Below, piece after piece: positions 34,917 through 48,060 of a stretch of 64,000 nt of DNA; position 1 is the stretch's first letter; each line of letters starts with the position of its first letter. Origin of the DNA: Okeania sp. SIO3I5 (GTDB taxonomy: Bacteria; Cyanobacteriota; Cyanobacteriia; Cyanobacteriales; Microcoleaceae); the NCBI RefSeq assembly GCF_010672085.1, contig NZ_JAAHHT010000006.1:27837-91836 (forward strand), given 5' to 3'. A model generated the notes under the pieces. It was not told where the DNA came from. It searched no databases and saw only the letters and a program-made list of their open reading frames with translations. The position numbers and the translations under genes were made by a program.

Positions 34917-35260
34917 TTTAGTTATTTAGTTGATTTTTAGTTATCAGTTATCAGCTATTATGGCTGAACTCAGAGAATTGAAATACTGAAGTTTATCTTT
35001 TTCATCTCCTTAAAAATGGAGTTTTGATACCTGAGTTTTCAGTTGTCAATTATCAGTTTCTTTACCTGAACTCAGAGAATTGAAATACTGAAGTTTATCT
35101 TTTTCATTTCCTTAAAAATGAAGTTTTGAAACCTGAATTTTCAGTTATCAATTTCTCTGGCTAAACTAAGAGGCTTGAAATACTGAAATTTATCTTTTTC
35201 ATTTCCTTAAAAATTGAGTATTGAGAGCTGAATTTTTGGTTAACTAATTTTAGCAAGATG
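34917..35260. repeat. three imperfect ~100-bp repeats upstream of the giant gene
   Basis: The string CTGAACTCAGAGAATTGAAA (diverged in the third copy) occurs near 34964, 35066 and 35161, each followed by TACTGAA(G/A)TTTATCTTTTTCAT and a TTTTCAGTT(A/G)TCA heptamer-like string. The copies lie immediately 5' of the 2513-residue gene and may include its promoter. Confidence 0.65.
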
Positions 35261-36378: not shown

Positions 36379-38076
36379 TTACCCCGCTTTTTTATATAAA
36401 ATATCCTGATAAGACCGTTCCGGTAAAGTCTCATTTATAGAATTAGATAGTGCTGCAATAGGTTCATATAAAGGCTTCAAAAAAGAATCAACTGCTTTTC
36501 TATCTGCATAACGTACCTCTATCAACATAAATTTTGGTTGGTACTTATCAAAATCAATACCCTGCAAAACATCTAATTCAAAACCTTCAACATCCAACGA
36601 AAATAAATCTATATTTTTAACTCCATGCTTATCAAGAATTGCAGTTAATGTTGTTGCTCGTACATTTATTTCATAACTATGATTAATATTTTGAACTTGG
36701 CAACCCCTTTCTAAATGAACTTTTTTTTCCTCCTCTGACTTCATAGCTCCATCAACAAAAGACATGAGATTACAATAATAAATTTTTATATAATCCAGAC
36801 CATAATCAAAAGGAACCAAAGCATAATTTTCTACCACAGACTTAGAGCGATTAATTCTACACTTTTCCGCTAAATCTGGTATTGCTTCTATCAAAATACC
36901 TTGCCAGTTTTTGTACTTCTCAAAATATAAAGAATTACTTTGACGTATTCCATCATTCGCTCCAACTTCAACAAAAAAACCATATTCCCAAGTTAAATAA
37001 GGAGTAAGTTTAAGATCCAGCTTATTCAAAGCATAATATTTTGTAGTTATATCAGGTTTTATTTCCAATGCTTTTAGCTGATAAACATTAGCTTCAAATA
37101 GCCTGCCTTGTTGCTGTAAAATCTCACTAATACTCCAATATGTCGCTGCCAAACTAGGTTCAAATTTAATAACTTTTTGATAGTAAGCGATCGCCTGTTC
37201 TAATTTACCTTTTTGCGAATAAATTCCACCTAACCTTGCATAAACTCTTGCCAAATCTGGTTGTAATTCTATAGCTTTCTGGTAAGAACGAATAGACTTT
37301 TCAATTTGACCTTGGGAATAATAGATATCCCCCAATCTCTGGTAAGCGTCAGCAGCATAAGGTTGACTTTTAATAGCTTCATAACAAGCCAAAATCTGAT
37401 TATTATGACTACCTTGATTTTGATTTTGTCTTTTAGTTATTGCTTCACCTTGCCCCAGAGAAATTCCCAAACAATATTTTTTTTTACTAGGTAAACTACC
37501 CCGATTAAATACTTCCTCATTCTGCAAAAAAATCGAAGTACAAATCTTATATTTTTGAGTAGGAAGTAATCCGTAAAAATCTAACCGTTTAAATTTTTTT
37601 TCTTGCAGAAACTCTAAAGCTACATCATTTTCTTCTCGAGCCGAATTATCAAAAATTATCAAGCCATTTGCTGTTAATTTCCGATAACAGACCTCGGCAC
37701 AACCTACCCTATTAATTCCATCAATTGCAATTATATCAAAATAACCATCATTATATTTGTTAATTTCGGCAGCATATTTTTCTCTATCCTCCAATAAAGA
37801 AAGTATGACATTTTCTGGCGTATAACTTTTAATTTTGAGAAAATAATCAGGATTATGTTCTACAGAAATTACTTCTTTAACTCTTTGAGCATACCACAAA
37901 GTTGATTGTCCACTCCCATATTCAAATACTCGAAAATCACTCTTTAATTTATCCTCAATAAATTCAATAGCAGGATAAGAATACCAAGGTAGAGGATTAT
38001 AATTGTAATCTATTGACTTTCCCTCTGTTAACGACTTCAGCCATCCTGAAGTTTCTAGATAGTTAAAATTAATCAT
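36379..38076 (-). CDS. methyltransferase - TPR - FkbM methyltransferase fusion
   Basis: The 565-residue protein has three parts. Residues ~1-190 are a class I SAM-binding domain (FEYGSGQST at 51-59, IAIDG at 116-120, IIFDNS at 140-145). Residues ~235-345 hold three TPR units (AYQRLGDIYYSQGQIEKSI and similar). Residues ~360-560 are an FkbM-family methyltransferase (FFVEVGANDG at 367-376, FSLDVEGFELDVLQG at 492-506). FkbM proteins often O-methylate sugars or peptidic products, and together with the neighbouring giant glycosyltransferase this suggests surface-polysaccharide modification. No membrane segment. The first eight codons (MINFNYLE) belong to a repeat unit found three more times upstream. 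Confidence 0.85.
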   Translation of the reverse strand: MINFNYLETSGWLKSLTEGKSIDYNYNPLPWYSYPAIEFIEDKLKSDFRVFEYGSGQSTLWYAQRVKEVISVEHNPDYFLKIKSYTPENVILSLLEDREKYAAEINKYNDGYFDIIAIDGINRVGCAEVCYRKLTANGLIIFDNSAREENDVALEFLQEKKFKRLDFYGLLPTQKYKICTSIFLQNEEVFNRGSLPSKKKYCLGISLGQGEAITKRQNQNQGSHNNQILACYEAIKSQPYAADAYQRLGDIYYSQGQIEKSIRSYQKAIELQPDLARVYARLGGIYSQKGKLEQAIAYYQKVIKFEPSLAATYWSISEILQQQGRLFEANVYQLKALEIKPDITTKYYALNKLDLKLTPYLTWEYGFFVEVGANDGIRQSNSLYFEKYKNWQGILIEAIPDLAEKCRINRSKSVVENYALVPFDYGLDYIKIYYCNLMSFVDGAMKSEEEKKVHLERGCQVQNINHSYEINVRATTLTAILDKHGVKNIDLFSLDVEGFELDVLQGIDFDKYQPKFMLIEVRYADRKAVDSFLKPLYEPIAALSNSINETLPERSYQDILYKKAG

Positions 38077-38690
38077 TTCAGTTATTAGTTATTAGTTATG
38101 ACAGATGAAGTGAAAATCAGGAAACTTATATTTATAACAATAGCCATCAGAAAATATTTGCTAAAAAAACTGTAGAAATTTAGTTTCCCCACCACATTTT
38201 TGCCAGAGGATTGTTTCATTTTCCTCCCTCAAATTTCCCGTAAATTTTCTAGATAGTTAAAATTCATCATTTCAGTTATCAGTTATTAGTTATAACAGGT
38301 GAAGTCAAAATTAGGAAACTTATATTTATCAACAATAACCATCAGAAATTATTTGTGAAAAAAACTGTAGGGGTTTGGTTTCCAAATCCAATTGTTGTCG
38401 TCGGATTGTTTCATTTTCCTACCTCAAATTTCCCGTAAATTTTCTAGATAGTTAAAATTCATCATTTCAGTTATCAGTTATTAGTTATAACAGGTGAAGT
38501 CAAAATTAGGAAACTTATATTTATCAACAATAACCATCAGAAATTATTTGTGAAAAAAATTGTAGAAGTTGAGTTTCCCCACCACATTTTTGCCAGAGGA
38601 TTGTTTCATTTTTCCACCTCAAATTTCCCGTAAATTTTCTAGATAGTTAAAATTCATCATTTCAGTTATCAGTTATCAGTTATGACAGAT
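38050..38690 (-). repeat. 195-bp tandem repeats of the gene's 5' region
   Basis: The landmark TTTCCCGTAAATTTTCTAGA occurs at 38234, 38429 and 38624, exactly 195 bp apart. The incomplete fourth member is the true gene start at 38052-38076. Each upstream unit carries, on the minus strand, ATGATGAATTTTAACTATC, which reads MMNFNYLENLREI then TGA. The array is thus upstream leader plus start codon, multiplied three times. Confidence 0.9.
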
Positions 38691-41014: not shown

Positions 41015-41074
41015 TAATAAGCCATCATTCTCAACTGATAACTGATAACTGATAACTGATAACTGAAAAAGTAG

Positions 41075-45361: not shown

Positions 45362-45391
45362 ACTGATAACTGAAAAAGCTGATAACTGAAA

Positions 45392-47281
45392 ATGACTCAA
45401 TGTTTAAATCCTAACTGTTTAAAACCTAATCCATCACAAACAAAATTCTGTTACAGTTGTGGTGAAAAATTAGTTTTAAAAGAACGTTACCGCCCTCTAA
45501 AAATTATCGGACAAGGAAGTTTTGGTAGAACTTTTCAAGCTGTAGATGAAGACAAACCTTCAAAACATTTCTGCGTAATTAAACAATTTTTTCCTCAAGC
45601 ACAAGGAACTAAAAGTTTGGAAAAAGCTGCGGAATTATTTGCTCAAGAAGCTCAACGTTTGGATGGTTTAGGTAGACATTCACAAATTCCCGAACTTTTC
45701 GCATATTTTACTCAAGATAATCGACAGTATTTAGTACAAGAGTTTATCGACGGGCAAAATTTACAACAGGAATTAGAAGAGTCGGGAGCGTTTGATGAAA
45801 GTCAAATTTTAGAGTTGTTAAAAAGTTTATTGCCGGTGTTGGAATTTATTCATTCTCAACAGGTAATTCATCGAGATATTAAACCAGAGAATATTATTAG
45901 GAGAAAGAATAATAATCAATATCCAATGCAAGCTCCAGTGCGAGCTTCTAGCTCGCCAGATAATATTATATTGGTAGATTTTGGTGCAGCTAAATATGCC
46001 ACAAAGACTGCTTTAGCTGTGACAGGAACCATTATTGGTTCTGCGGGATATGCTGCACCGGAACAAGCAATAGGAAAAGCAACTTTTGCTAGCGATATTT
46101 ATAGTTTGGGTGTAACTTGTATTCATTTATTAACTCAAGTAGAACCTTTTGATTTATTTGATGTGAGTGAAAATGACTGGGTATGGCGAGATTATTTAAA
46201 GTCGAGTGTGAGTGATGAACTTGGAGAAATATTGGATAAAATGATTGTTGCAGGAACTAAGAAAAGGTTTAAAAATGTAGGAGAAATTTTGTCTATTATT
46301 CTGCCTAACTATCAAAGAAAAACAGAATCTACTTTTCCATCGGAAATATCTCGACAATCAATTATTCAGCCTACCTCTCAACCACAAAAACAGTTGACTT
46401 CTCCACGAAAAATATCTCAATCATCAATGCCCTGTGTTTTATCTTCAACAGAATCAGAAAAAGGAGAGCTATTTACTTTTGAAGTTCCAACTGTCAATAT
46501 ATCCGGCTATATTACTCACCGTACCCAGGGAAGTGCTAGGCAAAAAATAGAAGATTTAGGTAATGGTATTAAGTTAGAAATAGTTTATATTCCTGGAGGA
46601 AGTTTTATCATGGGTTCCCCAGACAATGAAGAGGGAAGAGAGGAAAATGAAAGTCCGCAACATGAAGTTACTCTCCAACCTTTTTATATGAGTAAATATC
46701 CTATTACTCAAGAACAATATCAAGTTTTGATGGGTCAAAATCCTTCGCATTTTCAAGGAGAAAACCGCCCAGTAGAAAGTGTTAGTTGGTATGACGCTAT
46801 AGAGTTTTGCAAAAAGCTTTCTAGGAAAACTGGGAAAATTTATAGGTTGCCCAGTGAGAGTCAGTGGGAATATGCTTGTCGAGCAGGAACAACAACACCT
46901 TTTTATTTTGGAGAAACTATAACGTCTTCTGAGTTAGTTAACTACGACGGTAACTATCCTTATGCTTATGCTCCTAAAGAAGAATTTCGACAAGAAACAA
47001 CCGATGTGGGAAGTTTTCCTCCCAATGCTTTTGGTTTATACGATATGCACGGCAATGTGTTGGAATGGTGTCAGGATGTTTGGCATAATAATTATGATGG
47101 AGTGCCTACCGACGGAAGTGCTTGGGAAACTGGAGGAGATAGTAATAAAAGACTGCTCCGTGGCGGTTGCTGGAACTACTATTCTTGGAATTGCCGTTGT
47201 GCCTGGCGTATCTATTACGGTGCGGGCATCCCCTACATCAATGGGGGTTTTCGTGTCGTCTCGTCTGTCTCTCGTTCCTAG
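45392..47281 (+). CDS. Ser/Thr protein kinase with C-terminal FGE-sulfatase/C-type-lectin domain; probable DGR target
   Basis: The 629-residue protein has three parts. Residues 1-25 are a zinc ribbon (C4, C9, C20, C23). Residues ~33-310 are a Hanks-type kinase with GQGSFGRTF (40-48), K64, HRDIKPEN (160-167) and DFG (196-198), so it should be active. A Ser/Gln-rich linker (~310-385) follows, then from ~393 to the end a formylglycine-generating-enzyme-like domain (YIPGGSFIMGS, PVESVSWYDAIEFC, RLPSESQWEYACRAG, GNVLEWCQDVW). The last 40 residues (RGGCWN...GGFRVV) have the form of the variable region of diversity-generating retroelement targets. The protein would phosphorylate targets after ligand recognition by a diversified lectin-type domain; that is inference. 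No reverse transcriptase or template lies within the window. Confidence 0.88.
   Translation: MTQCLNPNCLKPNPSQTKFCYSCGEKLVLKERYRPLKIIGQGSFGRTFQAVDEDKPSKHFCVIKQFFPQAQGTKSLEKAAELFAQEAQRLDGLGRHSQIPELFAYFTQDNRQYLVQEFIDGQNLQQELEESGAFDESQILELLKSLLPVLEFIHSQQVIHRDIKPENIIRRKNNNQYPMQAPVRASSSPDNIILVDFGAAKYATKTALAVTGTIIGSAGYAAPEQAIGKATFASDIYSLGVTCIHLLTQVEPFDLFDVSENDWVWRDYLKSSVSDELGEILDKMIVAGTKKRFKNVGEILSIILPNYQRKTESTFPSEISRQSIIQPTSQPQKQLTSPRKISQSSMPCVLSSTESEKGELFTFEVPTVNISGYITHRTQGSARQKIEDLGNGIKLEIVYIPGGSFIMGSPDNEEGREENESPQHEVTLQPFYMSKYPITQEQYQVLMGQNPSHFQGENRPVESVSWYDAIEFCKKLSRKTGKIYRLPSESQWEYACRAGTTTPFYFGETITSSELVNYDGNYPYAYAPKEEFRQETTDVGSFPPNAFGLYDMHGNVLEWCQDVWHNNYDGVPTDGSAWETGGDSNKRLLRGGCWNYYSWNCRCAWRIYYGAGIPYINGGFRVVSSVSRS
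47159..47280 (+). other. DGR-type variable region at the 3' end of the kinase gene
   Basis: It codes for residues 590-629. Between the invariant RGG and GGFRVV, the positions that are Asn (AAC/AAT) in the usual DGR template of this family are here Tyr, Ser, Cys, Ile, Gly and others, with unchanged third bases (TAC, TAT, ATC, GGC, GGT). That is what adenine-specific mutagenesis produces. The segment is markedly richer in G+C than the rest of the gene. The GGTTTTCGTGTCGTCTCG stretch at the end would be the initiation-of-mutagenic-homology site. Confidence 0.65.
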
Positions 47282-47406
47282 GATTCTTCCCCTCTTTTCT
47301 TTTCCCCTTTTTCCCTTTCTCGTTTTTTCTATAAGCTACACTAACAATAAAATATGCTGTAACTGACAGACTAATAGACATCTCCCAAAATTAAAATTAT
47401 TTGACA

Positions 47407-48060
47407 ATGAACAAAACTCAAACCCAACTAACCACAAATACCTGGGTAACAGCAACTTGGCAAGAATATATCCAAACGATTCAAGACCCAACTTACGAAA
47501 AAGCTAAAAGTTACTATCACAAAGGAAAACTTAGAATCGAAATGTCACCATTAGGAAATGACCATGCTAATGACCATGCAGTTATCACTATTGCAGTTGG
47601 CCTCTTTGCTGCTACTAGAAATATTAACCTCAACTTTAAAGATAACTGCACTTATCGCAAAACTGGGTTTCGAGAAGCTCAACCTGATGTCTCCTGTTAC
47701 ATTGGTGAAAATGCAAATGTTATTCCTAGGGGAACTTCTATTATCAATCTAGATATTTATCCTCCACCAAATCTTGTTATTGAAGTTGCTAATACCTCTC
47801 TTCCTGATGATAAAGGTGAAAAACGTTTGTTGTATGAAGCAATGAATGTTTCTGAATATTGGATAGTTGACGTACAGAATCTAGAAATTATTGCTTTTGC
47901 AGTTACGAATGGAGGAAGTAGAAAAATCGATCAGTCTCAAGTTTTGTCTGGTTTACCTATTTCTTTGTTAGAAGAAGCACTTCAGCGCAGTTGCCAAACA
48001 AACCAAGGTCAAGTTTATCCTTGGTTATTGAAGGAATTTCAAGAAATAAATGCTCAATAA
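47407..48060 (+). CDS. Uma2 family (DUF820) PD-(D/E)XK-like protein
   Basis: The protein has 217 residues from the ATG at 47407; an in-frame TTG two codons earlier is less likely. The Uma2 pattern is clear: PDVSCYIGE (catalytic Asp), PPNLVIEVANTS (Glu), GEKRLLYEAMNVSEYWIVD. Uma2 is a restriction-endonuclease-like fold greatly expanded in cyanobacteria and often associated with mobile DNA; substrates are unknown. Fragments of this gene occur on both sides (44903-45010 and 48113-48450), evidence of local duplication. Confidence 0.85.
   Translation: MNKTQTQLTTNTWVTATWQEYIQTIQDPTYEKAKSYYHKGKLRIEMSPLGNDHANDHAVITIAVGLFAATRNINLNFKDNCTYRKTGFREAQPDVSCYIGENANVIPRGTSIINLDIYPPPNLVIEVANTSLPDDKGEKRLLYEAMNVSEYWIVDVQNLEIIAFAVTNGGSRKIDQSQVLSGLPISLLEEALQRSCQTNQGQVYPWLLKEFQEINAQ

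Follow-up and report, generated by a model that had tools for sequence, protein, structure and literature searches.

A kinase-FGE fusion gene of Okeania sp. SIO3I5 as a likely remote target of a diversity-generating retroelement that is broken in the genome assembly

Copying of a template RNA by a reverse transcriptase (RT) with Avd, homing in trans, and ligand recognition by a lectin surface are established steps in the biology of diversity-generating retroelements (DGRs). For cyanobacteria, remote variable proteins with an N-terminal Ser/Thr kinase, a C-terminal CLec domain and the variable region (VR) at the 3' end of the gene are already published, as are their many dispersed paralogs, paralogs with no RT close by, and degraded cassettes (Vallota-Eastman et al. 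2020, PMC7517822); the output of such proteins may be signalling (PMC7517822) or conflict sensing (PMC10907252). Trichodesmium erythraeum IMS101 (Tery_1035, Tery_1728), a near relative of the organism studied here, is reported to have two DGR-RTs and 18 template repeat (TR)/VR loci, at least 11 of which are hypervariable in ocean metagenomes (PMC8867640). For Nostoc punctiforme, DGR targets mutated at adenines can be detected in cultured material (PMC12691664). TvpA of Treponema denticola (PDB 2y3c), itself a DGR variable protein, has a C-type-lectin sequence of the formylglycine-generating enzyme (FGE) type. In the DGR of Bordetella phage BPP-1, the VR at the 3' end of the target gene undergoes adenine-directed replacement, and a recipient-side element is located beyond VR/TR identity; this DGR uses IMH plus a hairpin/cruciform, the hairpin is required, and the stems in phage DGRs are of 7–10 bp and lie 4–34 bp from the VR (PMC3240598).

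The gene described here, from a filamentous cyanobacterium of the sea, occupies positions 45392–47281 (+) of the window, that is, the whole 64-kb stretch of DNA that was analyzed, and it has the same layout as the cyanobacterial kinase-CLec proteins. Its 629-aa product matches PF00069 (Pkinase, E 1.9e-37) over residues 33–293 (45488–46270, +) and PF03781 (FGE-sulfatase, E 1.4e-56) over residues 396–623 (46577–47260, +), and residues 3–27 match NF045510, a 4-Cys kinase prefix. The Hanks-type catalytic motifs were all found (VIK, with the Lys, at residues 62–64, HRD at 160, DFG at 196, and APE at 222), and by these motifs the N-terminal domain is a candidate active Ser/Thr kinase. The kinase-FGE fusion claimed in a preliminary description of this DNA is therefore real. 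No membrane segment is evident in the protein, hydrophobicity being too low along all 629 residues. The C-terminal domain matches, by sequence, both human FGE and TvpA, with which it shares the RGG...GFR end (E 5.4e-25); the TvpA structure, a chain of 294 aa, includes no kinase, unlike the window protein. Judged by sequence, then, the VR sits close to the C-terminus in a fold of the C-type-lectin type; the structure predicted from 11 close homologs (mean pLDDT 45) was too poor for use. The downstream neighbour (47401–48060) encodes a putative endonuclease of the Uma2 family (PF05685), with no evident link to DGRs.

The terminal codons of the gene show the RGG...GFRVV frame and the local jump in base composition that had been claimed for them: G+C is 0.54 in 47154–47281, as compared with 0.37 in the gene and 0.35 in the window, and only 0.3% of the 128-bp tiles of the 64 kb reach that value. 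The VR spans 47155–47281 (+), within a few bases of the proposed boundary of 47150–47285, and is co-linear with two template repeats, TR1 and TR2, of a related genome (G027); its core (47155–47263) aligns with both, and identity resumes up to the stop codon. Because the SIO3I5 assembly contains neither a template nor a full RT, the adenine columns were taken from the template of G027. Relative to TR1, 16 of the 30 adenine positions are changed in the window VR, against 7 of the 79 others, these seven differences remaining in a comparison with the template of another genome (odds ratio 11.8, p = 2e-6). This strongly supports the view that template Asn codons were changed at adenines in a gene fused to a kinase, and it supplies the excess of adenine-position differences on which the preliminary description had staked its reading. 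The template core is GSWNNNSRNCRCARRNNNNADNFNNNRGFR, in which each Asn codon can yield 15 residues and zero stops.

The same directionality was observed across the genome. A search with the last 146 bases of the gene recovered 13 VR copies, the window gene included (10.5 Mb, 562 contigs), in which template-adenine columns have a mean entropy of 1.36 bits, as against 0.34 for all remaining columns (p = 1e-14). The bias relative to TR1 of G027 is significant in 12 of the 13, the exception being the copy on contig C335 (p = 0.09). Between the window gene and its ortholog in Okeania SIO2C9, template-adenine columns differ by 63%, whereas the kinase part differs by 8% and the FGE part by 7%. Among the bases that replace template adenines in the 13 VRs, T (105) outnumbers G (61) and C (16); A-to-C changes seem under-represented, perhaps by mutagenesis or by selection. 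Among plasmid records, the VR DNA matched only one, an FGE gene of Anabaena sp. 90, over 47% of the query.

All 13 copies form the 3' ends of FGE-domain genes that are dispersed in the genome and differ in their N-termini. Two copies, both on C35, share the zinc-ribbon kinase layout of the window gene, and other kinases are found at the copies on C38, C150, C117, C335 and C526; the VR genes on C2 and C218 look, from their sequence, to have a trypsin-like N-terminus, and that on C201 appears to encode TPR-like repeats. The VR gene on C92 is interrupted by internal stops, and that on C133 is cut by the contig end. The comparison of C526 with C133 revealed block transfer. Their upstream flanks differ at 40 of 260 bases (15%), but from GCTCCGTGG onward none of the 78 non-adenine columns differ, silent ones included, while 15 of the 31 adenine columns do (Fisher test, flank versus VR non-adenine columns, p = 2.7e-5; adenine versus non-adenine, p = 3e-10). 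Since the non-adenine columns are identical, the adenine columns differ and the flanks have diverged, these two VRs were written by mutagenic retrohoming from one shared template. The genome also carries a second, related FGE set with a different RGG...GFR consensus, on C111 (L230), C539 (L235), C92:8583 (L243), C161 (L231) and C1 (L250/L253).

The relative G027 shows what an intact cassette looks like. On its contig C2, an FGE target with a VR is accompanied by TR1, avd, the RT gene and TR2, and the TR1-avd-RT-TR2 part spans about 2.4 kb. Its Avd matches NF033474 at 137 bits (cut-off 80), its RT carries YVDD, and TR2 lies directly 3' of the RT gene. In the VR of this cassette, 10 of the 30 adenines of TR1 and none of its 79 other sites are changed; TR1 and TR2 differ from each other at 1 of 30 adenines and 8 of 79 other sites, with no adenine excess between templates.

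In contrast to T. erythraeum IMS101, for which RTs are reported present, the SIO3I5 assembly contains only an RT fragment, and the cassette lies in ruins. The sole DGR RT sequence, at C526:36248–36604, consists of the 118 C-terminal residues starting at the DD of YVDD and is 87–90% identical to the RT of G027. It is preceded by a CTGATAACTGAAAAG repeat and, before that, by a template stub of 42 bases (C526:36191–36232) that matches the very start of TR1 and the flank 5' of it; the core of TR1, avd and the N-terminal portion of the RT are thus missing. No TR2-like sequence was detected after the fragment. In the assembled genome, no intact DGR RT was found, no match to the Avd of G027 was obtained (the best NF033474 match genome-wide was 26.5 bits, below the cut-off of 80), and no template copy was detected, every TR-start pattern being a VR inside a gene. 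Relative to the published cyanobacterial proteins (PMC7517822), this locus therefore differs in having a remnant truncated at YVDD with a template stub and 13 targets without an assembled template. Pfam RVT_1 gave 31 matches in the genome; DGR-level identity to the DGR RT was seen for the C526 remnant alone. By reading of their ORFs, the matches at C312, C468 and C112 resemble maturases of group II introns, and that at C3 looks retron-like.

The preliminary description had placed the retroelement outside the window, had proposed a search of the genome for a template next to a DGR RT, and had held that the lack of both would count against it. The first statement stands for the RT fragment and template stub on C526 but not for a full RT, Avd or template, and the search returned a remnant RT with a 5' template stub but no template copy. 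Taken literally, the lack is real for a working system; even so, the identification stands, because the remnant, the intact cassette in the relative and the adenine pattern agree.

Damage to the cassette was also seen in related genomes. Four of the same genus (G001, G002, G003 and G004; L092–L096) have cassettes with frameshifts, in-frame stops or truncations, and no DGR-level RT was found in G005 and G006, also of this genus. All sampled congeners with an RT thus show damage, suggesting that the DGR machine decayed repeatedly in the genus, with the reservation that single lesions may be assembly errors since the genomes are drafts. Three Okeania-like genomes (G012, G018 and G030) have many VRs without a DGR-level RT. 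G004 has a second RT (C237), 61% identical, which may belong with the second VR-like FGE set.

We consider it likely that the window gene encodes a remote DGR variable protein whose VR was written by adenine-specific retrohoming, and that the cassette was broken later, leaving a frozen repertoire. According to this model, RT and Avd would have made cDNA from the template RNA, inserting random bases wherever an adenine was copied. This cDNA would have been exchanged in trans for the 3' ends of many genes, so that the recognition surface would vary from one protein to the next. The kinase output, in signalling or in phage/conflict sensing, could then be set by binding of a ligand, and the later break of the cassette in this lineage would have fixed the repertoire. 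That duplicated FGE-domain genes simply diverged under diversifying selection, with no retroelement involved, is hardly credible. FGE paralogs are indeed numerous and a recognition surface may evolve fast, but the changes follow template adenines and not surface codons generally; the block-transfer pattern of C526 and C133, identical at silent non-adenine sites between diverged flanks, in effect refutes it, and G027 has a template together with Avd and RT, the present genome a remnant. Formylglycine-generating activity of the FGE domain, coupled to the kinase, is equally improbable despite the strong PF03781 match. In the alignment with human FGE, with the motif read by eye, the first catalytic Cys falls on a variable site, which is Tyr in the window protein and Asn in the template, and only the second is kept; we rejected this reading because the first Cys is missing. 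Moreover, a separate FGE with both cysteines exists in the genome (C213), the one canonical enzyme among its 25 PF03781 matches.

Loss of the cassette was weighed against the alternative that the DGR is alive, with an intact cassette present in the organism but lost from the assembly and C526 representing one dead copy. Absence from an assembly of 562 contigs is not proof, given its draft status; the cassette could have been dropped because templates resemble the 13 VRs and break contigs. The two DGR-RTs and the targets hypervariable in the ocean reported for T. erythraeum (PMC8867640) and the template-fresh VRs at C526 and C133 also favor a live element. Nevertheless, we regard it as rather unlikely, as completeness is 99.98%, no RT, Avd or TR fragment occurs on contigs other than C526, the break on C526 lies inside the contig with no adjoining N run, and the cassettes of four congeners are damaged too. 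The targets look orphaned in this genome, as far as the assembly represents it. Under the favored reading, in which the cassette is broken, a family of DGR-written, kinase-coupled receptors is tied to a template in a relative, and written genes that persist in the assembly without the writing machine offer a natural case for asking whether a frozen receptor repertoire is useful.

A polypyrimidine tract, a candidate recipient signal, lies directly after the stop codon of the window gene (47282–47330, +) and overlaps the most pyrimidine-rich 55-mer of the entire 64 kb. A GATTCTTCCCCTYTWTTCTTTTCC-like tract follows the TTCCTAG end at all 13 VRs (at least 77% pyrimidine over 40 nt in 12 of them), whereas the templates continue after the same TTCCTAG with CACTCTTCATTGCC or alike, without a tract. 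The motif, with up to three mismatches, gave 10 matches in the genome, all at VRs, and the reversed control gave 0. CCCTTTT-type tracts were also observed 3' of many, though not all, RGG...GFR genes of Nostoc, Microcystis, Microcoleus, Anabaena, Leptolyngbya and others. Among cyanobacteria, the tract is found more often after VRs in which every residue can be reached from an Asn template (21/33 versus 13/41, p = 0.0096) and correlates with fewer K/E/Q/M residues (rho −0.40 for their number, p = 5e-4); no correlation was seen with NNY codon content, taken as an indicator of DGR-likeness (rho 0.18, p = 0.12). We infer that the tract marks recipients, and recipient sites are probably defined jointly by the tract and by the point upstream of it where VR/TR identity ends on the 3' side.

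Nonetheless, we are evenly divided over whether the tract is instead a terminator or was simply carried along when genes were duplicated. C526 and C133 share sequence downstream of the stop, so paralogs may inherit the tract; the correlation across cyanobacteria is moderate; and within the genome the presence of the tract in VR genes versus other FGE genes gave only p = 0.07, a value due in part to three VR-like genes of the second FGE set, which carry a CCCTTTT-type tract as well. Its presence after every VR of the family and after no template, the restriction of all motif matches to VR loci, its recurrence in many genera and its absence from the canonical FGE gene on C213 argue the other way. 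A BPP-1-type hairpin/cruciform 4–34 bp 3' of the VR, a criterion established for phage DGRs and not a shown defining feature of cyanobacterial ones, was not found: from −40 to +60 of the stop, perfect stems did not exceed 4 bp at any VR (longest 3–4). The polypyrimidine tract stands in the place that the hairpin occupies in BPP-1. As a tentative and doubtful extension, cyanobacterial DGRs might recognize their targets by a homopurine-homopyrimidine tract right after the VR, replacing the phage hairpin/cruciform, so that any gene 3' end gaining the module would become a target, with the repertoire frozen here on loss of the retroelement. A limited literature search returned no description of a VR-specific tract, which is possibly new; it is not mentioned in PMC7517822. 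The tract provides a concrete feature, open to deletion, that may explain how cyanobacterial DGRs reach many scattered targets, and its simple motif could help to locate such targets even where no retroelement survives.

Two further arrangements were recorded. In Okeania sp. SIO2B3 (NZ_JAAHGH010000008.1, L187), RGG...GFR lectin ends recur five times in a single open frame, at a spacing of about 310 residues, so that the protein has five tandem VR-like modules. Directly 5' of the ATG of the window gene lie two TAACTGA-type repeats (CTGATAACTGAAA; 45363–45391, +), whose link to the gene is only a candidate one. This class of repeats is already known (PMC4679880) and occurs 16 times in the window against 0.16 expected, there also at 34935–35151, 38076–38679 and 41035–41068; a site was noted at L029:10234–10249 as well. 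One repeat of this type sits where the DGR remnant on C526 is broken, and TR2 in G002 is cut by a similar one.
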